From: Clostridiaceae bacterium
Lineage (GTDB): Bacteria; Bacillota; Clostridia; Acetivibrionales; DTU013
NCBI GenBank assembly: GCA_012730015.1
Contig: JAAYBT010000103.1
Location: 1 to 35,309 of the forward strand
DNA: 35,309 nucleotides
Direction of reading: 5' to 3'
Numbering within the stretch: the first letter of the stretch is position 1; each line of letters opens with the position of its first letter. Shown here one piece after another: positions 2,716-15,053 of this stretch. The translations under genes were made by a program, and so were the position numbers. Below the pieces are notes generated by a model, which ran no database searches, was not told where the DNA came from, and worked only from the letters and a program-made list of their open reading frames with translations.

Positions 2716-4542
2716 TTAGGCATTTGTTTTGCTTCTCGCCTTGGCTCTAAGCTCCGTATTCAGTATCCTCTTTCTCAGTCTCATATTCTTTGGTGTTATC
2801 TCCACCAACTCATCATCAGAAATAAATTCAAGGGCTTGCTCCAAACTCAAGGTGATTGGTGGCGTTAGCCTAAGTGCTTCATCAGAACCTGCGGCTCTCA
2901 TATTGGTAACATGCTTCTTTTTGCAGACATTTACTACAATGTCTTCATTTTTAGCATTCTCACCAACTATCATGCCCTCATAGACTGTGACTCCTGCTGT
3001 TATAAAAAGGTTCCCTCTTTCCTGAGCATTATACAATCCATAGACGACGGACTCCCCTGCTTCCCATGCTACAAGTGATCCTCTCTGCCTGCTTGATATG
3101 TCACCCTTATAAGGCTCATGGCCGTTAAACACATGGTTCATTATACCATTGCCCTTTGTGTCGGTCAAAAATTCGGACCGATATCCAATCAGGCCTCTTG
3201 CTGGAATTTTGAACTCCAGGCGCATATAGCCCTCCGTCGCAGAATGCATATTCAGCATTTCAGCCTTGCGAGTGCCTAGCTTCTCCATTACAACGCCCAT
3301 GAATTCCTCAGGCACATCTATCATCAAAAGCTCAATGGGTTCAAGTATAGTGCCGTCAACCTCTTTCATGATAACCTTCGGCTTTGATACCTGAAGCTCA
3401 TAACCCTGCCTCCTCATGGTCTCAATTAGTATCGACAATGACAGCTCTCCTCTTCCTGACACCTTAAAGGAATCCGGCGATTCAGTCTCCTCAACCCTGA
3501 GACTGACATTCGTCTCAAGCTCCTTAAACAGGCGATCACGAATATGCCTTGAAGTTACATATGTTCCTTCCTTGCCGGCCAGAGGACTGTTGTTGACGCT
3601 AAAGGTCATGCTGATAGTCGGCTCGTCAATATTTACAAAGGGCAGGGGCTCCGGTGACTCCATGTCGCATATGGTTTCGCCTATGTTGATATCTCCGATT
3701 CCCGAAACCGCAACAATATCACCAAGCGACGCTTCTTTGGCATCCACCCTTCTTAACCCCTGAAACGTGTATAGACGGCTGATTTTTGCATGGGCTATGG
3801 TCCCGTCTTTTTTGCAGACCGCTGATTGCTGCCCCAGGCTGACCTTACCCCTATCAATCCTGCCTATGGCAATTCTGCCCACATATTCATCATAATCAAT
3901 ATTTGAGACTAAAAGCTGAAGAGGACTATCCAGTTCTCCCACAGGGGCAGGAACACTTTTAACTATCGTATCCAGCAGTGGCTCAAGATTCTTTCTCTCA
4001 TCCCCCAGGTCACATATGGCAAATCGATCCCTTGAGGAAGCATAGACAACCGGAAACTCAATCTGATCGTCATCTGCACCAAGCTCAATAAAAAGGTCCA
4101 ATACCTCATCTATAACTTCATCAGGCCTTGCCTCCGCCTTGTCGATCTTGTTGATTACCACGATTGGTTTGAGGCTAAGCTGCAACGCCTTGCGCAGCAC
4201 AAACTTGGTCTGAGGCATGGGGCCTTCGAATGCATCCACCAGCAGCAGCACACCATCCACCATCTTTAGCACTCGCTCTACTTCGCCTCCAAAATCGGCA
4301 TGTCCGGGGGTGTCTACAATGTTAATCTTAACTCCCTTATAAACTACGGAGGTGTTTTTCGCCATTATCGTAATGCCGCGTTCTCTTTCCAGGTCACCCG
4401 AGTCCATGACCCTTTCTTGCACCTGTTCATTCTCTCTGAAAATCCCGCTCTGTCTGAGCATACCGTCCACCAGTGTTGTCTTGCCATGATCTACGTGAGC
4501 TATAATCGCTATATTTCTAATGTCTTCTCTCTTCGTTGCCAC
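2716..4542 (-). CDS. typA: Translational GTPase TypA/BipA
   Basis: A ribosome-associated GTPase of 608 aa from the GTG at 4542, the usual length. G motifs are AHVDHGKT (residues 15-22), [16 protein letters not shown] and NKIDK. The elongation-factor-like domains II to V follow, with the BipA-typical [19 protein letters not shown] and a lysine-rich C-terminus. BipA helps 50S assembly and growth under stress or cold. The GTG is chosen because GGAAGGG lies seven bases upstream. An in-frame ATG at 4572 has no ribosome binding site and would add ten residues absent from the family. A strong promoter lies 81 bases upstream of the GTG. The downstream mltG follows after 27 bases. Confidence 0.95.
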
Positions 4543-4622
4543 AATTCTTCCCTTCCAGTCTATATAAACCATAAGCAGATATTATATTTGACTATGTTTA
4601 ACAGATTTATATTGCAAGCTAA

Positions 4623-4723: not shown

Positions 4724-4751
4724 ATGATACCTGCCACGGGGCAGGTATCAT
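4724..4751 (-). terminator. 12-bp perfect hairpin behind the NRPS-kinase-regulator unit
   Basis: ATGATACCTGCC and GGCAGGTATCAT form a perfect 12-bp stem around a four-base loop, 45 bases past the stop of the HD-GYP regulator. It probably ends that operon, or separates it from typA. The minus strand has no long T-run behind the stem (TATCTGG), so it is not a textbook intrinsic terminator. Read on the plus strand it is followed by ACAACTTTTCTTT, but no plus-strand gene lies here. Confidence 0.45.
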
Positions 4752-4796: not shown

Positions 4797-6305
4797 TCAT
4801 TCATAAGTGGCGGCAGTCTCTCTCATCATCTCGTTAAAACCAAATCCATCAATTAGCTCAACAAACATGGATACGACATCACTGTCAAACTGTGTTCCTG
4901 CACCCATAATCAACTGCTGTCTGGCATCCTTAAGGTTGAGCTTGGTCCTGTATAGGCGGTCAGACATCATTGCATCAAAGGCATCCGATACGGATATTAT
5001 CCTAGCAAGCAGAGGGATCTCATCGCCACGCAGTCCCTCCGGATAACCTGTCCCGTCAACTCTTTCATGGTGGCATTTGACAACTGGAACTACGTCCTTA
5101 AACATTGATACCGCAGACAAGATGCGTGCTCCCTTAAGAGGATGCTTCTGAATCTCAATCAGCTCCCTCGTCGTTAGTTTCTCTGTTTTTAACAGGATGT
5201 CATCTGCTGTGCCTATCTTTCCTATATCATGAAAAATACCGCTTATGCGTAGTGTCTCCATATCCTGACTGGACAAACCGGCCGCCTCGCCTATCTTGAC
5301 TGCATAGTATGCAACGCGGTCCGAATGGCCCCTTGTATATATGTCCTTTGCATCAACTGCCAGACGTAGCACCTCAATTGTGTCCATATACCTAAGCTTA
5401 AGCTGATCGTATGTTTTGTTGAGCTCGTCATTTTTCATGTTGACCAAGGAATGAAGAAAAGCATTGTTGATGGATGAAGCCGCCTGACTTGTGTAAATCT
5501 CCAGAAGCTTGATACCATCTTCTATATTCTTGCTCTCAACATAAATAACTCCAATCGTCTGTTTAAACTCATTATTCAAGGGAAAAATAACGCCTTCCTC
5601 CAGGTGTACAATCTGTTGGGATATCCTTGCGTAGCCTATATGCTCCATCAGCGTGGGGCTTAGCATCTCCATAAAGTGCGTTATCTCAGCTTTGTACTTC
5701 CCTATTCCTTTAAAAATACTTTTATTCTCATCGATTATGTCTGTGGTATCATCAACCAGAATAAAGGCATTCTTACTATCAACAAGGGGCATTATTTCAG
5801 TCAAGATTTCTTCCATTATTGAGTCGATAGGTTGCAAGGAATATATCTTAGGAACGGCCTGCAATATCTTGTTGAGGCCATCTCTAAATTTCTTGATCGT
5901 CCTCATTTGAGAAATAGATTTGATTCCTGACTCCACAAGCAATAGCAGTTGATCAAACCTATCGCTTTTCTCGCAGTAGCTTTGTATGTCCAGCGCCTTT
6001 ATTGTCTCCAGTGGCGGTGCCAAATCCTTATGTCCGGTAAGTAATAGAATATACAGCTCACTGTTAAATTCCCTGATTGTCTCAACAACCTTGTCACCAT
6101 GAATCGGATACATCAAATAGTCCAGTACCATCAGGTCAAAGTGCTCGCTTCTAATCTTTTCTACAGCCTCCAAAGGGTCGGTAACCCCCACGACATCATA
6201 GCCGCTGCGCTTAAGCACAACAGTTAATGAGTCAATGATTCCGACCTCATCATCAACAACCAGTATTTTGTAATTCAATGAGGTGTTACGTATTTTTCTT
6301 CGCAT
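4797..6305 (-). CDS. Response regulator with REC and HD-GYP domains (predicted c-di-GMP phosphodiesterase)
   Basis: A 502-aa regulator. The REC domain (about 12-130) has the acidic pair D18/D19, phospho-acceptor D62 in LMVLDYLMYP, T90 in LLLTGH and K113 in CEKSD. The middle region (about 140-290) looks like a GAF-type sensory fold but I do not see a firm motif. The HD-GYP domain (about 305-495) has GIFHDIGKIG with H359/D360 and HHERVDGTGYP (412-422), so the metal site and GYP signature are intact. Predicted job: hydrolyse cyclic-di-GMP when phosphorylated. Its ATG follows the kinase stop with no gap, and AGGAGG lies eight bases upstream inside the kinase gene. It is therefore almost certainly the partner of that kinase and the last gene of the NRPS unit. 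Confidence 0.92.
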   Translation of the reverse strand: MRRKIRNTSLNYKILVVDDEVGIIDSLTVVLKRSGYDVVGVTDPLEAVEKIRSEHFDLMVLDYLMYPIHGDKVVETIREFNSELYILLLTGHKDLAPPLETIKALDIQSYCEKSDRFDQLLLLVESGIKSISQMRTIKKFRDGLNKILQAVPKIYSLQPIDSIMEEILTEIMPLVDSKNAFILVDDTTDIIDENKSIFKGIGKYKAEITHFMEMLSPTLMEHIGYARISQQIVHLEEGVIFPLNNEFKQTIGVIYVESKNIEDGIKLLEIYTSQAASSINNAFLHSLVNMKNDELNKTYDQLKLRYMDTIEVLRLAVDAKDIYTRGHSDRVAYYAVKIGEAAGLSSQDMETLRISGIFHDIGKIGTADDILLKTEKLTTRELIEIQKHPLKGARILSAVSMFKDVVPVVKCHHERVDGTGYPEGLRGDEIPLLARIISVSDAFDAMMSDRLYRTKLNLKDARQQLIMGAGTQFDSDVVSMFVELIDGFGFNEMMRETAATYE

Positions 6306-8165
6306 CTATTCTGCCTCCTGAGTGCTGTATGTAATGCATGGTATTGAAATAAAAAATGTTGTACCGCAATCTTCTTTAGTAGTAAAAGATATGTTTCCGC
6401 TAAAGCGTCCCTTTATTGTTGCGTATGACATATAAAGGCCCAAGCCGGTACCTTTTTTGCCTTTAGTCGTAACCATCTCCTTAAAAAGTCTGTCTGCAAC
6501 CTTTTTGGGTATGCCCTTTCCAAAATCCTTGAAGGTGAACTCCACATTGTCGCCGCTACGAACAATAAGCAATTCAATGACGCCATTCTTCCCTTCATAG
6601 GAATGCATAGCATTAATTATTATGTTATCAAACACCTGAACAAGATTGTTAACCTCCCCCTTGATTTCAGTGCTTTTGTCAATGCAAAGATCAATTTTCA
6701 AAACACAGTGGTGCCTCTTTAATTCGTGCTTGAGCAGTAGATCAACTCTTTTGACAACCTCATCCACTGTAAATTTATCGGTGCCAGAGGCGCTCATTTG
6801 AACAGCCTGTCCCTTGACTGCTGAGATAACATCCGACATATATGCACAATAAGGCCTCATCTTCTCCAGCCAGCCAAGCATATCCTTAGCGATCTCCTTG
6901 TGATCCTGTTCGGTCACGCTCCTGTCATCGATAGAATCCCGATATTCATATGTCAGGTCCTTAAGGGCTTCGATGGCACCGGATATTGACATTATCGGGG
7001 TCTTAAGGTTGTGAGCAATCCCTCCGATCAGCTGCCCCAGTGACGCAAGCCGCTCCTGCTCCAGCAGAATAGCCTGCTGTTCCTTTATTGCTTCAATATT
7101 CTTCTTGTGCTCGGTAATATCCTTCAAGAGGATGAGTGTACCAAGGTAATGATCCTGGGAATTGATCTGTGTGATTTCCACTGTGAAAAAACTTTCAAAA
7201 CCTTCGGATATTATGTATTTCTCAAAGGTCTGTCTTTTCTCCTTCCGTGAAGCCACAACCACTTCAGCCAGCTCTGCTATGTCAATGTTTAGACCATCTA
7301 TAGATTGAGCTAAATCATACAAATTCTCATGCCTATTTGCGTCCAGCTTATTATTGCATAAGTGATTAAACATCCTGTTATACTCTATTATATTTGCGCT
7401 TTCATCAATAACTACAAACGCATCGGAAATATTGTCCACAACATTTTTGAGGGCAATTGGAATAACATTTAAAAACTTATATTTAAAAATGGCTACAGCA
7501 AAGCATAGTACTGCAAAAGAAAAAGATATGTTTTCCAGGAAAACCGGCATTTCTACTATACCCTGTGTACTAAGTAAGACAACAACCAGTGGTAGCAATA
7601 CGCCTATGAATATTAGTATCGACTGCTTTGAGAAGAAGCCGGAGTTTCTTATTGAAAAATATAGTAAGTAGTATAGCCCTATTAAAATACACGCATATGA
7701 ATAGATCTCGTGTACAATATAGTATTTGCCGTATACAAAACCAGTACTAATATAGCTATACTCTATAATGAATAGGTTATGGTACACATTTGTAAAAACC
7801 ATAACAAGAGAAATCGTAGGCACTATAAGTAGAAGCAGGTGTTTTGCGGAAATGCTAATTTTTGTCCTGGCATATATAATGCCAGTGAATAAAAGTGAAA
7901 TAGGAATAAATATAACACCGATGTAGGAAATATGTTCCAAGCTAATTACTAGGCTCTCATTCTTATCTGGAATTATTATCTGAAGAAGCCTGCAAATACT
8001 CCATATAAACATAAATGCTACATTCAATAGGAAGACATAATGAATCTGCTGTTTCTTGCGTATTCTGCTTATATATATTCCAATAAAGGCAATAAGCAGC
8101 ACCGATACGAATAAAAGAAAAAAAAGTATGTCATTGTGGTAGATAATCGGAATCACCTCTATCAA
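6306..8165 (-). CDS. Membrane sensor histidine kinase (7TM N-terminus, PAS, HisKA-like, HATPase)
   Basis: A 619-aa kinase. Residues 1-230 hold about seven hydrophobic helices in the pattern of the 7TM histidine-kinase N-terminus (HISYIGVIFIPISLLFTGIIY is typical). A PAS domain follows (about 240-355, NISDAFVVIDESANIIEYN). The phospho-acceptor box GGIAHNLKTP has H385. The ATPase has an N box (DNIIINAMHSYEG, about 513-525), DFGKGIP (547-553) and KGTGLGLYMS (571-580), all intact. A TTG at 8165 is used as start, with TTAGG upstream; a GTG at 8156 is an alternative. It begins eight bases after the NRPS stop and ends directly against the HD-GYP regulator. The signal sensed is unknown; a small hydrophobic or membrane-borne ligand is an inference. 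Confidence 0.9.
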   Translation of the reverse strand: MIEVIPIIYHNDILFFLLFVSVLLIAFIGIYISRIRKKQQIHYVFLLNVAFMFIWSICRLLQIIIPDKNESLVISLEHISYIGVIFIPISLLFTGIIYARTKISISAKHLLLLIVPTISLVMVFTNVYHNLFIIEYSYISTGFVYGKYYIVHEIYSYACILIGLYYLLYFSIRNSGFFSKQSILIFIGVLLPLVVVLLSTQGIVEMPVFLENISFSFAVLCFAVAIFKYKFLNVIPIALKNVVDNISDAFVVIDESANIIEYNRMFNHLCNNKLDANRHENLYDLAQSIDGLNIDIAELAEVVVASRKEKRQTFEKYIISEGFESFFTVEITQINSQDHYLGTLILLKDITEHKKNIEAIKEQQAILLEQERLASLGQLIGGIAHNLKTPIMSISGAIEALKDLTYEYRDSIDDRSVTEQDHKEIAKDMLGWLEKMRPYCAYMSDVISAVKGQAVQMSASGTDKFTVDEVVKRVDLLLKHELKRHHCVLKIDLCIDKSTEIKGEVNNLVQVFDNIIINAMHSYEGKNGVIELLIVRSGDNVEFTFKDFGKGIPKKVADRLFKEMVTTKGKKGTGLGLYMSYATIKGRFSGNISFTTKEDCGTTFFISIPCITYSTQEAE

Positions 8166-8173
8166 GTGTCTGC

Positions 8174-11100
8174 CTAATTAAAGCTATCCCTAATAAAGCC
8201 TGTTACCTGCATATGTTCAATAAGCTTCTTTATGTAATCCAATGTTATCATTGGCCATTCAAACCCTACCCTGGCAAGGTTGTTTTTAGTCATGTTGGAA
8301 TTAATGCTAATTGGCGAGCCATATTCCAGGGCATTATCCTTGCTCATATCTGCAATTATTCCAGCTAGTATGTCATGTTTCGTTCTGTCCTCTGAAATCC
8401 TTTCAACCAGCTTGCTGAAATCATCTGTCTTCAAAACCTTGATCCGCAGCGACAGCCTGGAAAACATGTTAATTAACTCCCCGATCGTGACCTCATTATT
8501 ATTTGTAATATGATATACTAATTCGTTCCGTCCGGGCTCCTGCATAAGTAATAATATGGCTTTGGCTGCTAAGTCCACAGGAGAGAATTCCACATCAACA
8601 TCAAGTTGATTTTCGGGTATAGCCTTTAATAGAATGATGGATCTGATGATACTGTAAAAGGCATTTTCATGTATGTTTTTCTGAAAATATCCATCGGAAA
8701 AACGTCCCGTCAAATTGCCCATCCTGAATATAGTCGCATCCATTCCCTGCTTGACCTCGTTAAATATGACCTTCTCAGCCTCAAATTTACTTCTCACATA
8801 TACGTTCTCTTTGTAGTTTTGTCCAACAAAGAAATCGTCCTCATTGAAGTCACGGGCTTCACCTTCAAAAGCAGTCAAATAGCTTCCGGCTATTGCGAGA
8901 GTAGAAATATAGTACAGCTTCTTTTCATACTCTCGAACAAATTGTGCAATTCTTTGCGTGCCCGCTACGTTGGTGTTAGCAAATTCAGCGTAATCTCCAT
9001 AGTATTTTACAATGGCCGCTGAATGAATAACCGTATCAATTGTCTCGGATAATTTCAAATAATCCTTATCCTCTAGAGAAAACTTATCTTGTCCGATATC
9101 ACCCTCTATTACAAAAATTCGCTTATTAATAAATCTTGCATAATCAAAGGCAAAATAATCCTCAAGAGTTCCCTTTAGCTTGTTGACAGCATTGCTCTGA
9201 TCCTTTCCCCTAATAAGACAATATACAGTTGCATTCGAGTTGTCAATAAGCTCCCTCAAAATATGTATGCCAAGGAACCCCGTTACTCCGGTTAGCAAGA
9301 CATTATTCAGTTTACCAGCCTTCTTATTCTTGTTTTCCAAGCCTAATTCCTTCAAATCAAATATATCTTTATTACTGCTTGCAGCCACTTCCTCAAAAGC
9401 ATCTGCGAGTATCTTATCCGACATTAGCTTCACCGTCTGGCAATTATAGAAATCAGCTGCTGTAATACCCCAATTATGCTTGTGTGCCCTGATCAGCATA
9501 TCTATGATCGCTAAGGAATCAGCTCCCAGATCAAAGAGGTTGTCATTTACGCCGAAGTCACTCCTTTTAAGGCATTCTTGGCATATCTCCAGGAGTACTC
9601 TTTCTACTTCATTTGACGGTGCTTCGTATGAAGTCGTTGCCTTCTGACTCATATCAGGCTCAGGTAATGCTTTTCTGTTTATCTTTCCATTTGATAACAA
9701 GGGCAGACTGTTAAGCTGAACAAAAAAGGATGGAACCATGTAATCCGGCAACCTACTTAAAAGGAATGCCTTCAAAGCTTCATAGGATATCTGTTTTTGT
9801 GAGACATAGTATGCGCACAAGTAATTTTCTCCACTTGCCCTGGCTTTACCAACGACAACCACTTCATTGACATCCTTGTGCTCAAGCAGTCTTTTTTCTA
9901 TTTCTCCCAGTTCGATTCTGAATCCTCTTATTTTTATCTGTGAATCTATTCTTCCAAGATACTCGATATCACCCTTGGGATACCATCTGGCTAAATCACC
10001 TGTGCGATAAATAATTCCGCCGGGATTAAAAGGATTGTCTACAAACTTTTCCCTTGTCAGCTCTTCATTATTTATGTACCCTCGTGCTACACCAACTCCT
10101 CCGATATAAAGCTCTCCAGCTATACCGATTGGAAGCAGATTCATGTTTTTATCCAGTATGAAAATTTTCGTATTGTCTATGGGTTTTCCTATAGGCACTG
10201 TCTTCAGCGGCTTCTTCTCAGGACGACAATCATAGTATGTCACGTCTATCGAAGCCTCAGTAGGCCCATATAAATTTGATAATAAAGTACCATTATTTTT
10301 GTTCAACAATCGGTTGAATTTCTCAACCTGCTGAACAGTTAAAGCTTCACCGCTGGCAAAGACCTGCTTCAAAGAAGAAAGCCTGTGCGTATCTTTCGTT
10401 TCATCAATGTAATCTAAAAACATATTAAGCATGGAGGGCACAAAATGGAGTGTTGTGACCACGTTCTTTTCAATTGCCTTAATAATTTCTTCAGGATCCT
10501 TCTCGCCATCTGGAATAAGAAAGCATGTCTCTGCTCCCACTATAAATCCCCAGATTAATTCCCAAACAGATACATCAAAGGTATAAGTTGTTTTTTGCAG
10601 TATAACATCCTTATCATCCAGAGGGTATTTCTTCTGCATCCAGTTCAATCTGTTAATTAAGCTGTGATGCTCTATCATTACCCCCTTGGGATTTCCTGTA
10701 GAGCCCGATGTATAAATAATGTAGGCCAGGTCGGTAGGTTTGTTGATGTTTTCAAGATTAGTATCTCCATATTTGGATTGCAGACAATCATCCAAATTTA
10801 TTACTGTTCCGCCGAATTTCATTTCTTTCGCATGCTCAGACAGGGTCAGCAAAAGCTTCGATTTACTGTTTTGCAGGATATATTCCTTTCTCTCCAGAGG
10901 GTATTTGGGGTCAATAGGCAGGTATGCACCTCCAGCCTTTAGGATACCCATTATTCCAATAATCATCTCAAGCGAGCGCTGAACCATTATCGATACTGCT
11001 TCGTCAGCGGTAAGGCCTTTGTCCCGCAGCATCCTTGCTACTTGGTTGGCTTTCCTGTTTAGCTCATCATATGTAATGCTTTTTCCCTCAAATACCGCCG

Positions 11101-12526
11101 CTCTTTTATTCGGCGTCCTTTTGACCTGTTCTTCAAACAACTGCTGTATCGTCTTGTCCCGCGGATAGTCGCAGGCAGTGTCATTAAAGTCCTTAAGTAA
11201 TTTGTGTTTTTCTAGTTCCGATATCATCTCCAATTTTGATATTGGCTTATAAGGATTATCTAAGCCATGCCACAATATGCTTAATATGTGATGATGTATG
11301 AAGTCAATTTCAGTTGGATTAAACATGCTTAAAAGATAGTCGTAATCGATGATAAATTTATCATCATTATCTCTGTCGTTAACATTTATAATAAGAGATT
11401 CTATCTGATGTCCGCTGAAATGCCACCTTGTTGTAAAGGGCTCATAACTATCATTCATAAACTTGGAGTTTTGATATGTCAAAACAATATCGAAAATATT
11501 ATCCGCATTGCTTTGTTCCCTGATTTGTTTTAGTAATAGATTGTATGGGTATTTCTGATGCCTGAGAACTGATAATATCTCCCTTGAGATTGATTCTGCA
11601 AAGGTTTTCAAGTTCCAATCATCATGAATATCTACCCGAACGGGAACCGCTGTGCTTACAAACATGCCAAAGGTAGCTTTTTCTTTGGCATTTGTTCGAT
11701 TTAATAAGGTCGTACCGATTGTTAGGTCCTCTTTCCCGGATACCCTGTTGATATACATTGATAGGGCGGCAAAGAACAATGCATATTCAGAAACCTTATT
11801 TTCACTGCAATATTTGCGTAATTTATCAGTTAATTTTTTAGGCAATACATGTGTTTTACGTCTGGCTTTGGAGTCAAGGCTCAATGATGTACGGGGCTTT
11901 AGCGTAGTTACCTCCTTGAAAGCAGACAGCCTCTTGGTCCAAAAATCATTATCTGATTTGAACCTCCCGGATTCAAAATAATCATTTTCTCTCAGAATGA
12001 AGTCTAAATAGGATGGCTTCTTTGATGGGTCAATCAGTTCGCCATTTTTTAGTTTGGAATAATACTCGACAATGTTGTTGCCAACTATACTCATAGACCA
12101 TGCATCAGAAATCAAATGATGCATTTTTACAAAGAAACCACCGACATTGTCGCTTATTTTTATCAAATCAAAATGAAATAAGTCGCTATCTATTAGGTCG
12201 AAAGGCTCTTCTGACCTAGCCTTGTCCCAGGCAAATAGTTCTTCGCTGGATGACTGGCTAAAATCGAAAAATTGGAGCTTTTTGTATTTGTAATTCGACA
12301 CATATTGATATGGCTCATTATCCTTTTGTGTAAACCTTAATCGAATAGCATCATTCTTCTCAACGAGAAGATTTACAGCCTTCTCCAATAGTAGATAATC
12401 AATATCTCCCTGTAATTTTAACGTTGCAGCAATAGTACCAATGCTTGTCCCCGGATATAGCTTCTCAGTATACCATATCCCCTTCTGAGGCTGCGTGAGA
12501 GGATAATAGTCGATATTGCATCGCAT
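8174..12526 (-). CDS. Single-module nonribosomal peptide synthetase: condensation - adenylation (Ser-like) - carrier - terminal reductase
   Basis: A complete 1450-aa C-A-T-R module. The C domain (about 1-440) has HHLISDAWS (136-144), with Ala replacing the usual Gly after the Asp. The A domain (about 455-960) has YTSGSTGNPKG (605-615), YGPTE and NGKINRKAL. Lining up with GrsA by eye gives the pocket code D651 V652 W655 H694 F723 S725 L752 I760 D761 K948. DVWHFSLIDK is close to known serine codes (EntF DVWHFSLVDK). The carrier has GADSL with S1004. The reductase (about 1070-1450) has GVTGFLG (1080-1086) and Y1243/K1247. Expected product: an N-acylated or N-aminoacyl serinal, or the alcohol. 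The donor and the phosphopantetheinyl transferase are not encoded in this window. The ATG at 12526 follows GGGGTG by six bases; a GTG at 12535 would add three residues. Confidence 0.93.
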   Translation of the reverse strand: MRCNIDYYPLTQPQKGIWYTEKLYPGTSIGTIAATLKLQGDIDYLLLEKAVNLLVEKNDAIRLRFTQKDNEPYQYVSNYKYKKLQFFDFSQSSSEELFAWDKARSEEPFDLIDSDLFHFDLIKISDNVGGFFVKMHHLISDAWSMSIVGNNIVEYYSKLKNGELIDPSKKPSYLDFILRENDYFESGRFKSDNDFWTKRLSAFKEVTTLKPRTSLSLDSKARRKTHVLPKKLTDKLRKYCSENKVSEYALFFAALSMYINRVSGKEDLTIGTTLLNRTNAKEKATFGMFVSTAVPVRVDIHDDWNLKTFAESISREILSVLRHQKYPYNLLLKQIREQSNADNIFDIVLTYQNSKFMNDSYEPFTTRWHFSGHQIESLIINVNDRDNDDKFIIDYDYLLSMFNPTEIDFIHHHILSILWHGLDNPYKPISKLEMISELEKHKLLKDFNDTACDYPRDKTIQQLFEEQVKRTPNKRAAVFEGKSITYDELNRKANQVARMLRDKGLTADEAVSIMVQRSLEMIIGIMGILKAGGAYLPIDPKYPLERKEYILQNSKSKLLLTLSEHAKEMKFGGTVINLDDCLQSKYGDTNLENINKPTDLAYIIYTSGSTGNPKGVMIEHHSLINRLNWMQKKYPLDDKDVILQKTTYTFDVSVWELIWGFIVGAETCFLIPDGEKDPEEIIKAIEKNVVTTLHFVPSMLNMFLDYIDETKDTHRLSSLKQVFASGEALTVQQVEKFNRLLNKNNGTLLSNLYGPTEASIDVTYYDCRPEKKPLKTVPIGKPIDNTKIFILDKNMNLLPIGIAGELYIGGVGVARGYINNEELTREKFVDNPFNPGGIIYRTGDLARWYPKGDIEYLGRIDSQIKIRGFRIELGEIEKRLLEHKDVNEVVVVGKARASGENYLCAYYVSQKQISYEALKAFLLSRLPDYMVPSFFVQLNSLPLLSNGKINRKALPEPDMSQKATTSYEAPSNEVERVLLEICQECLKRSDFGVNDNLFDLGADSLAIIDMLIRAHKHNWGITAADFYNCQTVKLMSDKILADAFEEVAASSNKDIFDLKELGLENKNKKAGKLNNVLLTGVTGFLGIHILRELIDNSNATVYCLIRGKDQSNAVNKLKGTLEDYFAFDYARFINKRIFVIEGDIGQDKFSLEDKDYLKLSETIDTVIHSAAIVKYYGDYAEFANTNVAGTQRIAQFVREYEKKLYYISTLAIAGSYLTAFEGEARDFNEDDFFVGQNYKENVYVRSKFEAEKVIFNEVKQGMDATIFRMGNLTGRFSDGYFQKNIHENAFYSIIRSIILLKAIPENQLDVDVEFSPVDLAAKAILLLMQEPGRNELVYHITNNNEVTIGELINMFSRLSLRIKVLKTDDFSKLVERISEDRTKHDILAGIIADMSKDNALEYGSPISINSNMTKNNLARVGFEWPMITLDYIKKLIEHMQVTGFIRDSFN

Positions 12527-12589
12527 GATAGACACCCCGTTATCATTAGTAAATAGCCAAGTAAACTACATAAAAACCCTTCAGTGAAC

Positions 12590-12618
12590 ATTATATTGTT
12601 TTTTTCTATCGAACACAA
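12590..12618 (-). promoter_or_regulatory. Promoter of the NRPS-kinase-regulator unit
   Basis: On the minus strand, TTGTGT (12618-12613), a 17-base spacer and a perfect TATAAT (12595-12590), about 64 bases before the NRPS ATG. The -35 is weak, so an activator may be needed. It separates the unit from mutS2, which ends 50 bases upstream. Confidence 0.65.
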
Positions 12619-12668: not shown

Positions 12669-15053
12669 TTATTTTATAGTCACTATTGTTACTCCTGATT
12701 CTCCCTCGCCATATTTCCCAAGTCTGTACCCCTTCACATGCTTGCTGCTTTTTAAGAACTGGTGAACACCATTGCGTAACATACCGGTACCCTTCCCATG
12801 GACAATGGTCACCTCAACAAGCCCTGCTATTACGGCATCATCCAAATATTTCCCAAGAATCTGCACGGCTTCATCCACATTAGTTCCCCTTATATCAATC
12901 CGTGGAGAAATACTCATCGACTTTGAAATGCCTATCCTGCCGGCACCTGCCTTTTGTATTTCCTGCGCCTGATCGTCAACGAGCTTCAGATTTGTAATGT
13001 GTACATTTATCTTCATTATCCCGGCTTGTACCAGCACCTCTCCGTCACTATCCGGAGCTGTCAGGACGGTTCCCTTTTGGTTCAGATTCGTAATCAGTAC
13101 ACTGTCCCCGGGCTTCAAGCTCTCAGGGGGCTTAATATAGCTCTGTTTGGGAAAAAGGCTCTCGGCAAGGGAACCCTCTAAATCGCCTATATTGCTTCTC
13201 AGTCTGGCCCTTGCCTCCTCAATAGCTCTGTTCCTGTCTGCCTCATCCTGCTCCCTGGCCGCACGCTTAATATCATCAAGTATACCCTCAGCATCCTTTT
13301 TTGCGGTAAGTAGGATCCCTCTAGCTTCCTCTCTGGCTTCACGCATCAGCTTGTCCTTCTGTGAAATCAGCTTTTCCTTCTGTCCCTCCAGCTCTTTTTT
13401 TAACTCCTCGATTTCCAGCCTGTATTTTTCGGCCTGCAGCTTTTCCTTCTCCGTATCGCTGCGGTTTTTTTCGATAGTCATGAGAACATCTTCGAACTCA
13501 ATTTCCTCGCCGGATAAAAACTCCCTGGCTTTATCCAAAATCTCCTCCTGTAGGCCAAGCCTTCTTGATATGGCAAATGCATTGCTCTTTCCGGGAACGC
13601 CAATAAGCAGGTTGTAGGTAGGCCTTAGTGTTTCCACATCAAATTCACAGCAGGCATTCTCAACGCCCTCGGTAGTTAAAGCGTAAACCTTAAGCTCGCT
13701 GTAGTGGGTCGTAGCAACTGTAATCGCGCCTTTTCCATGAAGCCTCTCCAATATCGCCATAGCAAGCGCTGCGCCCTCTGTGGGGTCTGTACCCGCTCCA
13801 AGCTCATCAAAAAGCACCAGGGAATTCTCATCAGCTTCACGAAGAATTCTGACAATGTTGGTCATATGTGATGAAAATGTACTCAGACTCTGCTCAATGC
13901 TTTGCTCATCACCGATATCGGCGTACACTTTGTCGAAAACGCCTAACTCAGTACCCTCCACAGCCGGTACATGAAGTCCGGCCTGAGCCATTAGTGTAAA
14001 AAGCCCCAAGGTCTTTAGCGTAACAGTCTTTCCACCTGTATTAGGCCCGGTTACCACAAGAGTATTAAAGCTGCCGCCCACCCACAAATTAATCGGAACG
14101 ACAGTGTTGCCGTCCAATAGAGGGTGTCTTCCCTTTTTTATATTAACTCTTTTTTCATGATTAAGTTTAGGGCAAACACACTTTAGCTCAAGGCTCAGCT
14201 TCGCCTTGGCAAATGCAAAATCCAGATCGGCGAAAATTGCTATGTTAGTTTTCAAGGCCTCTAAAATCTCCGCGACATCAGCTGTCAATTCATGCAATAT
14301 CCGCTCTATCTCAAGCTGTTCCTTTGATCTTAGCTGCTTTATGCTATTATTGGCTTCCACCACAGCCATAGGCTCCACGTATAGGGTTGCCCCGCTAGCC
14401 GATGAGTCGTGAACAAGTCCCGGCACTTCATTCTTAAATTCGGCCTTAACAGGTATGACATAGCGATCGCCCCTAAGGGTAACAATGGACTCCTGCATAA
14501 GCTTTTGATACTTTGAGGAGCGAATCATGCTATCAAGCTTTTCCTTAATAGATCTCTGCTGGTCCTTTATCTGCCTTCTGATACGTGCTAAGGTATTGCT
14601 TGCGCTGTCAGCGATTTCTTCCTCGCTCACAATCGACATATTTATTTTGTCTTCTACACGCTTATTGGATACAATCGACGAAATAAGTCCGCTGATGCGG
14701 TTGGACTCAGCAAGCCCCTTCTGGTCGGCTGATGCCGAGTAGTTCTTAATGTTTCGTGCTGTGCGCAGGGTGTCGGCAATATGCAGCAGCTCTGCGGGGT
14801 TTAGCATTGAGCCTATCTCCACTCTTTTCAAGCTGCCTCGTATATCATGCAATCCGCCAAGGGGTGGGTTGCCCCGTCGCAATATAAAATCTGTTGCATC
14901 AGTCGTTTCCCTTAGCCTTTCGGTTACGACTGCCATGTTGCTCTCCGGCATAAGCTCACCGACAATTTCTCTGCCTAGCTCTGACGCACAAAGGCTGGAA
15001 AGCTTTTTCACTATCTTATCAAATTCCAATATTTTTATTGCCCTGTTATCCAT
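12669..15053 (-). CDS. mutS2: MutS2 family ATPase/endonuclease
   Basis: A 794-aa MutS2. It lacks the mismatch-recognition domain of MutS and starts with a coiled-coil core and clamp (about 1-320). The ATPase has GPNTGGKT (336-343) and SLVLFDELGAGTDPTEGAAL. A long charged coiled coil follows (about 515-620, rich in Glu/Lys). The C-terminal Smr domain (about 715-794) has RIDIRGTNVDEA and VHGKGTGMLR. Family knowledge: it suppresses homologous recombination and, in Firmicutes, acts on collided ribosomes. The ATG has only a weak ribosome binding site, so coupling to the gene ending 13 bases upstream is likely. Confidence 0.96.
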   Translation of the reverse strand: MDNRAIKILEFDKIVKKLSSLCASELGREIVGELMPESNMAVVTERLRETTDATDFILRRGNPPLGGLHDIRGSLKRVEIGSMLNPAELLHIADTLRTARNIKNYSASADQKGLAESNRISGLISSIVSNKRVEDKINMSIVSEEEIADSASNTLARIRRQIKDQQRSIKEKLDSMIRSSKYQKLMQESIVTLRGDRYVIPVKAEFKNEVPGLVHDSSASGATLYVEPMAVVEANNSIKQLRSKEQLEIERILHELTADVAEILEALKTNIAIFADLDFAFAKAKLSLELKCVCPKLNHEKRVNIKKGRHPLLDGNTVVPINLWVGGSFNTLVVTGPNTGGKTVTLKTLGLFTLMAQAGLHVPAVEGTELGVFDKVYADIGDEQSIEQSLSTFSSHMTNIVRILREADENSLVLFDELGAGTDPTEGAALAMAILERLHGKGAITVATTHYSELKVYALTTEGVENACCEFDVETLRPTYNLLIGVPGKSNAFAISRRLGLQEEILDKAREFLSGEEIEFEDVLMTIEKNRSDTEKEKLQAEKYRLEIEELKKELEGQKEKLISQKDKLMREAREEARGILLTAKKDAEGILDDIKRAAREQDEADRNRAIEEARARLRSNIGDLEGSLAESLFPKQSYIKPPESLKPGDSVLITNLNQKGTVLTAPDSDGEVLVQAGIMKINVHITNLKLVDDQAQEIQKAGAGRIGISKSMSISPRIDIRGTNVDEAVQILGKYLDDAVIAGLVEVTIVHGKGTGMLRNGVHQFLKSSKHVKGYRLGKYGEGESGVTIVTIK

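Follow-up and report, generated by a model that had tools for sequence, protein, structure and literature searches.

A nonribosomal peptide synthetase, a 7TM sensor kinase and an HD-GYP response regulator are encoded side by side across many bacterial families

Introduction

Does the gene of a small nonribosomal peptide synthetase (NRPS) lie beside those of a sensor histidine kinase (HK) and an HD-GYP response regulator (RR) by accident, or do the three belong together? The question is raised by a 35,309-base stretch of Clostridiaceae DNA (contig C31 of genome G000, hereafter the window), whose source genome of 2.85 Mb in 278 contigs is 87% complete. Open reading frames (ORFs) and domain searches with Pfam and NCBIfam confirmed the gene order given in an earlier note on this DNA: on the minus strand, from the mutS2 side to the typA side, an NRPS with condensation, adenylation, thiolation and thioester-reductase domains (C-A-T-R), an 8-base gap, a seven-transmembrane (7TM) kinase, no gap, and a regulator composed of REC, DUF3369 and HD-GYP. 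That note also suggested that the three genes could form a self-made signal circuit, in which the kinase would sense an aldehyde made by the NRPS, or the state that it reports, and convert it into a drop in cyclic di-GMP (c-di-GMP). We found the three-gene link to be real, widespread, conserved over many families and not incidental.

Results

Linkage of NRPS, kinase and regulator genes

Linkage was counted from the regulator side with an alignment of 11 RRs from NRPS loci as the query, in one scan of one genome per species. At least 586 stretches matched the pattern and 443 were confirmed; the best 80 were taken, corresponding to 79 distinct loci (L handles), a sample that is biased to NRPS loci by its NRPS-linked query and in which eight or more loci duplicate contigs from the genomes with G handles. 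Among the 49 HK-RR pairs found there, the kinase is immediately preceded by an NRPS gene in 38 and by another gene in six (L035, L059, L074, L077, L082, L089), and five are cut at or close to a contig edge, which places an NRPS upstream in 38 of the 44 informative pairs. This is the opposite of the outcome that had been named as speaking against the link, a kinase-regulator pair found mostly without the NRPS in relatives. The NRPS-HK gaps range from −34 to 127 bases, with 35 of 38 at 50 bases or less and 13 of 38 junctions overlapping as called. Thirty further loci contain no called HK-RR pair; NRPS domains occur in eight of them (L037, L041, L046, L055, L057, L080, L098, L104), including three more NRPS-linked loci (L037, L055, L080) that escaped ORF calling and were recovered by tblastn, and no NRPS was seen beside RRs without a kinase (e.g., Acetivibrio L039 and L045). 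Record titles span Peptococcaceae, Clostridiaceae, Oscillospiraceae, Christensenellaceae, Family XIII, Erysipelotrichaceae and Holdemania. NRPS, HK and RR are all present in Clostridium lacusfryxellense (L075), Sporobacter termitidis (L052), Holdemania species (L084-L086) and Acetivibrio alkalicellulosi (L083, record flagged unverified), and such named strains render a circuit of the three testable now.

Counting from the reductase side, 58 genomes of the order yielded 32 R-domain rows. The 11 rows scoring at least 267 bits and the NRPS of G016, split over two contigs, all adjoin a kinase, identified by its core in ten cases and, in G049 and G051, by a HAMP-type sensor with another core, while none of the other 19 rows is near a kinase match by coordinates. 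An even sample of 341 genomes across the class gave 31 R rows beyond the 1e-50 threshold. Each of the best 15 lies next to a kinase gene: 12 were recognised from search matches (coordinates being the sole basis for G294, G360, G217 and G172) and three, with more diverged kinases (G094, G148, G377), by reading of the DNA. Row 17 (G069) does so too; for row 16 (G039) and for the 14 rows that scored weakest, the search showed no kinase match nearby, their DNA being unread. One subfamily of reductase-ended NRPSs goes with this kinase; NRPSs at large do not. In a tree of 138 kinase rows (G006 left out), which leaves many forks open and served for label clustering only, the NRPS label needs 14 changes versus 39.9 in shuffles. 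Because of these counts and shuffles, we consider NRPS-kinase adjacency to be above chance, a judgement made outside any formal chance model.

Incidental linkage was rejected on the counts from both sides. A particular form of it, in which the genes are mere neighbours kept by inheritance next to mutS2, would fit the age of the site, since mutS2 lies beside the locus in seven genomes (G000, G001, G002, G021, G031, G041, G006), and would fit the absence of the NRPS from G006. However, many linked loci have no mutS2 in the stretch examined, a third of the junctions overlap, as counted above, and both genome samples place R-domain NRPSs of this type next to a kinase, all of which renders this explanation very unlikely. 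As a separate observation, family f13 (L112-L114, L125-L130), with two tandem kinases of the same group and neither NRPS nor HD-GYP RR, nests among the NRPS-linked kinases.

Catalytic residues and predicted output

The phospho-acceptor His385 of the window kinase (motif HNLKTP) is kept in 37/37 HKs. The residue after this His is usually Glu or Asp in histidine kinases; here it is Asn in 36 of the 37 aligned sequences (H-N-x-x-T-P; His385 at window 7013-7011). For the RR, 2 of 37 rows were dropped as incomplete, HD-GYP sites were aligned to 4mcw and 5z7c, and motifs were scored by alignment columns, a strict regular expression having failed on valid variants. Invariant in 35/35 complete RRs are His327, His359, Asp360, His388, His412, His413, Asp441 and GYP 420-422 of the HD-GYP domain, as well as Asp62, Thr90 and Lys113 of REC. 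Tyr323 aligns with a Glu of PmGH (4mcw) that binds a third metal. Since the metal-site and GYP residues are intact, a fall in c-di-GMP is the likely output, in agreement with what had been proposed. c-di-GMP as the substrate is nevertheless putative, because the best solved-structure match of the HD-GYP domain, 5z7c, is a 3'3'-cGAMP phosphodiesterase. Pfam revealed no DNA-binding domain in the RR, and control of transcription by the RR itself was rejected for this reason. The source genome likely possesses c-di-GMP signalling, as it contains 16 GGDEF matches (15 over the cut-off) and four PilZ matches.

NRPS specificity and divergence of the sensor

The NRPS is the sole Condensation-domain match in the incomplete source genome. 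Its adenylation (A) domain carries the motif-anchored code DVWHFSLID, a serine code by the Stachelhaus table; other A domains read as Thr, Gly, Pro or Val. The C domain is 29-49% identical to the first and 19-25% to the second C domain of two-module relatives, which gives it the look of a domain from a first module, perhaps of the starter type; the product is predicted to be N-acylated.

Mean pairwise identity is 0.33 in the 7TM region, 0.32 in PAS, 0.53 in the kinase core and 0.64 in REC. Covariation was assessed in 34 loci, after removing three near-copies, over the 549 pairs with core identity under 0.7. Loci sharing the first A code exceeded the expected 7TM identity by 0.042 (p=0.0007), with no excess in PAS (p=0.16), kinase core (p=0.59) or REC (p=0.20); sharing the last A code gave an excess of 0.033 in 7TM (p=0.0007) and of 0.014 in the kinase core (p=0.02). 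The data are suggestive of a 7TM sensor that tracks the A-domain code, and this covariation suggests specific recognition.

The aldehyde as such had been thought to be the key, which was not borne out: the kinase-linked NRPSs of L018, L019, L048 and L050 end in a thioesterase instead of R, and the aldehyde was rejected as a required feature. The same four loci bear on a self-protection or envelope-stress loop, in which an amphipathic or aldehyde product would perturb the membrane, the 7TM kinase would report it and c-di-GMP would adapt the cell, with no cell-cell signal involved. Although the sensor does sit in the membrane and a reductase-ended NRPS can yield a reactive aldehyde, the thioesterase-ended forms and a sensor that varies with the A code, pointing to specific recognition, leave this loop improbable.

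A PilZ-GNAT module fused to NRPSs of relatives

Unexpectedly, the NRPS of some relatives has at its N-terminus a YcgR/PilZ plus tandem-GNAT module, which the earlier note did not contain. About 545 extra residues precede the first C domain in G023, G026, G029, G041, G044, G034, L032 and L075. Pfam PilZ (PF07238) scored above its cut-off in L017, L018, L023, L075, L083, L191 and L194 and below it in L025, L059 and L193; L089 gave only PilZNR, below the cut-off, and no Pfam PilZ was found in L195 or in the L020 N-terminus. Of the PilZ motifs RxxxR and (D/N)xSxxG, the first is kept in 9/9 aligned sequences and the second, as DxSxxG, in 5/9. In the source genome, 87% complete, a profile search found no such module.

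An AlphaFold2 model of the protein from L059, made together with six relatives (pLDDT 77.8, pTM 0.70), matched YcgR-like PilZ proteins in Foldseek (best MrkH, 8.1e-12), and its residues 245-565 matched tandem GNATs. With VIA-align 2, the top GNAT row was the histidine acetyltransferase 9emd (Z 14.9, rmsd 4.6, 261 aligned, 8% identity), along with 9emp, the same enzyme with N-myristoyl-histidine (Z 14.6, rmsd 4.5, 264 aligned), and N-myristoyltransferases came next (Z about 10, rmsd about 7). Likeness of fold does not by itself prove function. The modelled folds of both halves are those of YcgR/MrkH/MotI PilZ proteins and of tandem-GNAT acyltransferases; what differs in the relatives is that the two are joined together and to an NRPS, a combination that is not known to occur in other proteins. 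Where the module is fused, c-di-GMP may also control the synthase, and a second messenger would then act directly as a switch for a peptide synthetase.

The module also occurs alone. A stand-alone PilZ-GNAT gene precedes HK-RR in L089 (whose contig recurs as L209), L206 and L208, with a contig-cut copy in L077, and stands one gene before the HK in L059, where a ThiF/E1-like gene lies in between (L059:1831-2649). In the DNA read around L192, L193 and L195 it has no partners of this sort. At L194:5301-8708, a stand-alone PilZ-GNAT is followed after six bases by a 7TM sensor fused to HD-GYP, which amounts to the circuit in a single protein. In G049 and G051, the profile covers the two ends of the module and skips the PilZ-holding part, Pfam finds no PilZ, and no nearby gene matches the HD-GYP domain; as the two are close relatives, this joint absence counts as one event at most. 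Their kinase core and regulators differ, and a HAMP-type sensor of the same kind still stands beside the NRPS (L020, L021), a point in favour of the circuit proposed below.

These fusions would also fit a c-di-GMP-controlled natural-product operon, in which the HK responds to a cue from outside or from the envelope, the HD-GYP draws down a local pool of c-di-GMP and the NRPS is switched, PilZ-fused forms directly. The product, which might be a peptide aldehyde that inhibits proteases, would then be what the operon puts out and not what it senses. In its favour are the PilZ on the synthase itself in several loci, the HK-RR pairs with PilZ-GNAT and no NRPS (L077, L089, L206, L208), and NRPS aldehydes of gut bacteria described as protease inhibitors in two reports (PMC10039858, PMC12327764). 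On the other hand, the module is found in only 4/38 linked NRPSs (L032, L075, L078, L083) and not in that of the window; no c-di-GMP riboswitch reached gathering scores at the NRPS in any of 20 sources, window included; Pfam and NCBIfam revealed no exporter among the nine proteins scanned around the window operon (flanks of other loci lying outside the scan); and sensor identity follows the A-domain code. We regard such an operon as the main rival of a signalling circuit, and as less probable.

A candidate signalling circuit

The reading we favour, while giving it no better than an even chance, is a circuit of signal synthase, sensor and c-di-GMP phosphodiesterase. From the computed gene order and its conservation, the domains, the catalytic residues, the PilZ-GNAT fusions and the sensor/A-code covariation, we infer that the NRPS would make a small N-acylated aminoacyl product, in the window probably an N-acyl-serinal or a derivative, that the 7TM kinase would perceive at the membrane; phosphate would then pass from His385 of the HK to Asp62 of the RR, whose HD-GYP domain would hydrolyse c-di-GMP. 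In relatives with a fused YcgR/PilZ-GNAT, c-di-GMP would gate the synthase, closing a feedback loop. The self-made signal of the earlier note is thus favoured by the covariation and by the likeness to Rpf/DSF set out below, and stays a proposal.

Several observations weigh against the circuit. Product, ligand and activity are all putative, being predicted. The covariation permutations ignore tree structure, and with near-copies kept the contrast is weaker, the last code also giving p=0.015 for PAS and p=0.002 for the kinase core. Partial Mantel tests linked the sensor to A (0.45-0.50) and to R (0.50, n=19) but were null for sensor against C domain (r=0.04), and the kinase core and HD-GYP also correlated with C, which makes these results hard to read. 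The PilZ-GNAT module is as scarce among linked NRPSs as reported above, and missing from the window's. HK-RR pairs stand without an NRPS in L059, L074, L077 and L089 (L035 and L082 are ambiguous), as well as in L206, L208, L117, L123 and L138, whereas NRPS-HK occurs without a recognised RR nearby in L196-L198, L203 and L205, and G034 has PilZ-GNAT-NRPS-thioesterase with neither HK nor RR within 18 kb. Finally, the mutS2-HK and HK-RR-typA pieces of G006, on two contigs, leave no space for an NRPS: the HK starts 164 or 165 bases after mutS2, and the RR precedes typA. The NRPS appears to have been lost there.

Promoter, HK, RR and mutS2/typA synteny are kept in G006 (L109, L110) despite this apparent loss; were the signal idea true, it would be a natural listening-only strain.

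A bolder version of the circuit combines a c-di-GMP-gated PilZ-GNAT-NRPS, a lineage-specific N-acyl-aminoacyl pheromone, a co-evolving 7TM kinase and a c-di-GMP-destroying HD-GYP into a closed autoinduction loop new to Bacillota. This remains tentative, short of the even chance given to the circuit itself. If true, DSF quorum sensing would have a counterpart built on an NRPS, whose A domain would set private dialects in the gut and other anaerobic habitats. The locus is a widespread and concrete candidate for a system by which cells of Clostridia and Erysipelotrichia signal to one another; in these groups, to our knowledge, few small-molecule signals are known. It also offers a possible native role for reductase-ended NRPSs of a type so far known as makers of protease inhibitors.

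Comparison with known systems

In Xanthomonas, RpfF-made DSF activates RpfC-RpfG, and the HD-GYP domain of RpfG degrades c-di-GMP (PMC5391125), so that perception of the signal lowers c-di-GMP (PMC5391125, PMC13220807). The same three roles recur here, namely signal synthase, membrane sensor kinase and HD-GYP regulator. The window RR has Response_reg and HD_5, with DUF3369 between them, and a gut relative (L096) has the short REC-HD-GYP form without DUF3369, as in Rpf/DSF. In contrast, the window synthase is an NRPS, with no RpfF-type enoyl-CoA hydratase gene in the operon; the HK has HisKA_7TM and, by Pfam, neither REC nor Hpt, unlike the hybrid RpfC; and the host belongs to Bacillota instead of Proteobacteria.

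ComQXP and agr are peptide pheromone systems. Like them, the present locus has a sensor half that diverges faster than the kinase half (0.33 versus 0.53) and appears to track the signal maker; it differs in that the signal maker would be an NRPS and the output an HD-GYP enzyme, not a transcription factor.

Among NRPSs, the aureusimine synthase AusA is reductase-ended, as is the window NRPS, which the AusA model matched with 1002 bits, below the NCBIfam equivalog cut-off of 2500. A phosphopantetheinyl transferase (PPTase)-like gene lies just 5' of the NRPS in L048 (L048:139-852; best model AusB, 103.5 of 225 bits, below cut-off), and similar genes precede the NRPS in L052, L053 and L066, as judged by eye only. 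The gut dipeptide-aldehyde NRPSs (ruminopeptin; Guo et al. 2017) resemble L096, L101 and L103, where a two-module R-ended NRPS stands with HK and RR, but the window NRPS has one module, not two. Small gut NRPS pathways yield dipeptide aldehydes according to PMC12327764, the available part of which names no kinase or HD-GYP partner; these clusters were compared by description only.

A 2026 quorum-sensing review describes RpfC/RpfG and, in the part available, names no NRPS-kinase-HD-GYP system, the term HD-GYP being absent from its main text (PMC13220807). Among the titles and abstract openings searched, which leave out most subscription journals, none dealt with an NRPS partnered by HD-GYP or PilZ, and an earlier description of an NRPS-HK-HD-GYP system may exist.

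Features of the window locus

Table 1. Coordinates of the operon and its surroundings in the window.
Feature	Position	Strand	Basis
NRPS, one module C-A-T-R, 1453 aa from GTG 12535	8174..12535	-	ORF call, Pfam, NCBIfam
NRPS motifs HHLISD, GADSL, TGVTGFLG, YVRSK	within 8174..12535	-	sequence motifs
NRPS adenylation domain, code DVWHFSLID	9683..11137	-	Pfam, motif-anchored positions
NRPS thioester-reductase domain (R)	8192..9304	-	PF07993 165.1 bits (cut-off 20.1); TIGR01746 203.6 bits (cut-off 213.35)
HK, 619 aa: HisKA_7TM, PAS-like region, HisKA, HATPase_c	6306..8165	-	ORF call, Pfam, alignment
HK 7TM sensor region, residues 17-236	7458..8117	-	PF16927, 128.2 bits
RR, 502 aa: REC, DUF3369, HD-GYP	4797..6305	-	Pfam, alignment
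Promoter TTGTGT 12618-12613, 17-base spacer, TATAAT 12595-12590	12590..12618	-	sequence
Perfect 12-bp hairpin 3' of RR, loop CCGT, without T-run	4724..4751	-	arms 4751-4740 / 4735-4724, -19.6 kcal/mol
mutS2	12669-15053		NCBIfam equivalog
typA	2716-4572		NCBIfam equivalog

Three structural details in the earlier note stood in part (Table 1). Of its 7TM-PAS kinase, the 7TM part is secured by HisKA_7TM; PAS is not found by Pfam at E 0.001, and residue 239 is where the alignment of some NCBIfam models for kinases begins. The single promoter has a weak −35, with three of six consensus bases, and was not listed by a consensus scan, yet TTG, 17 bases and TATAAT are kept at the same position after mutS2 in G001, G002 and G006. 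The hairpin is real; it has no T-run, and its sequence was not seen in L014 or L015. As for the starts, the HK TTG at 8165 is uncertain, and for the NRPS, by eye, ATG 12526 (1450 aa), six bases 3' of GGGGTG, is more likely than GTG 12535.

Two observations concern single relatives. In L074, the gene before HK-RR (L074:2-1138) weakly matches the N-terminal part of PigE (46.6 bits, cut-off 850) and perhaps encodes another aldehyde-forming enzyme. In L027, a c-di-GMP-I riboswitch (L027:12455-12539) lies just 5' of, and on the same strand as, a gene for a 238-aa HD-GYP-like protein that faces the RR.

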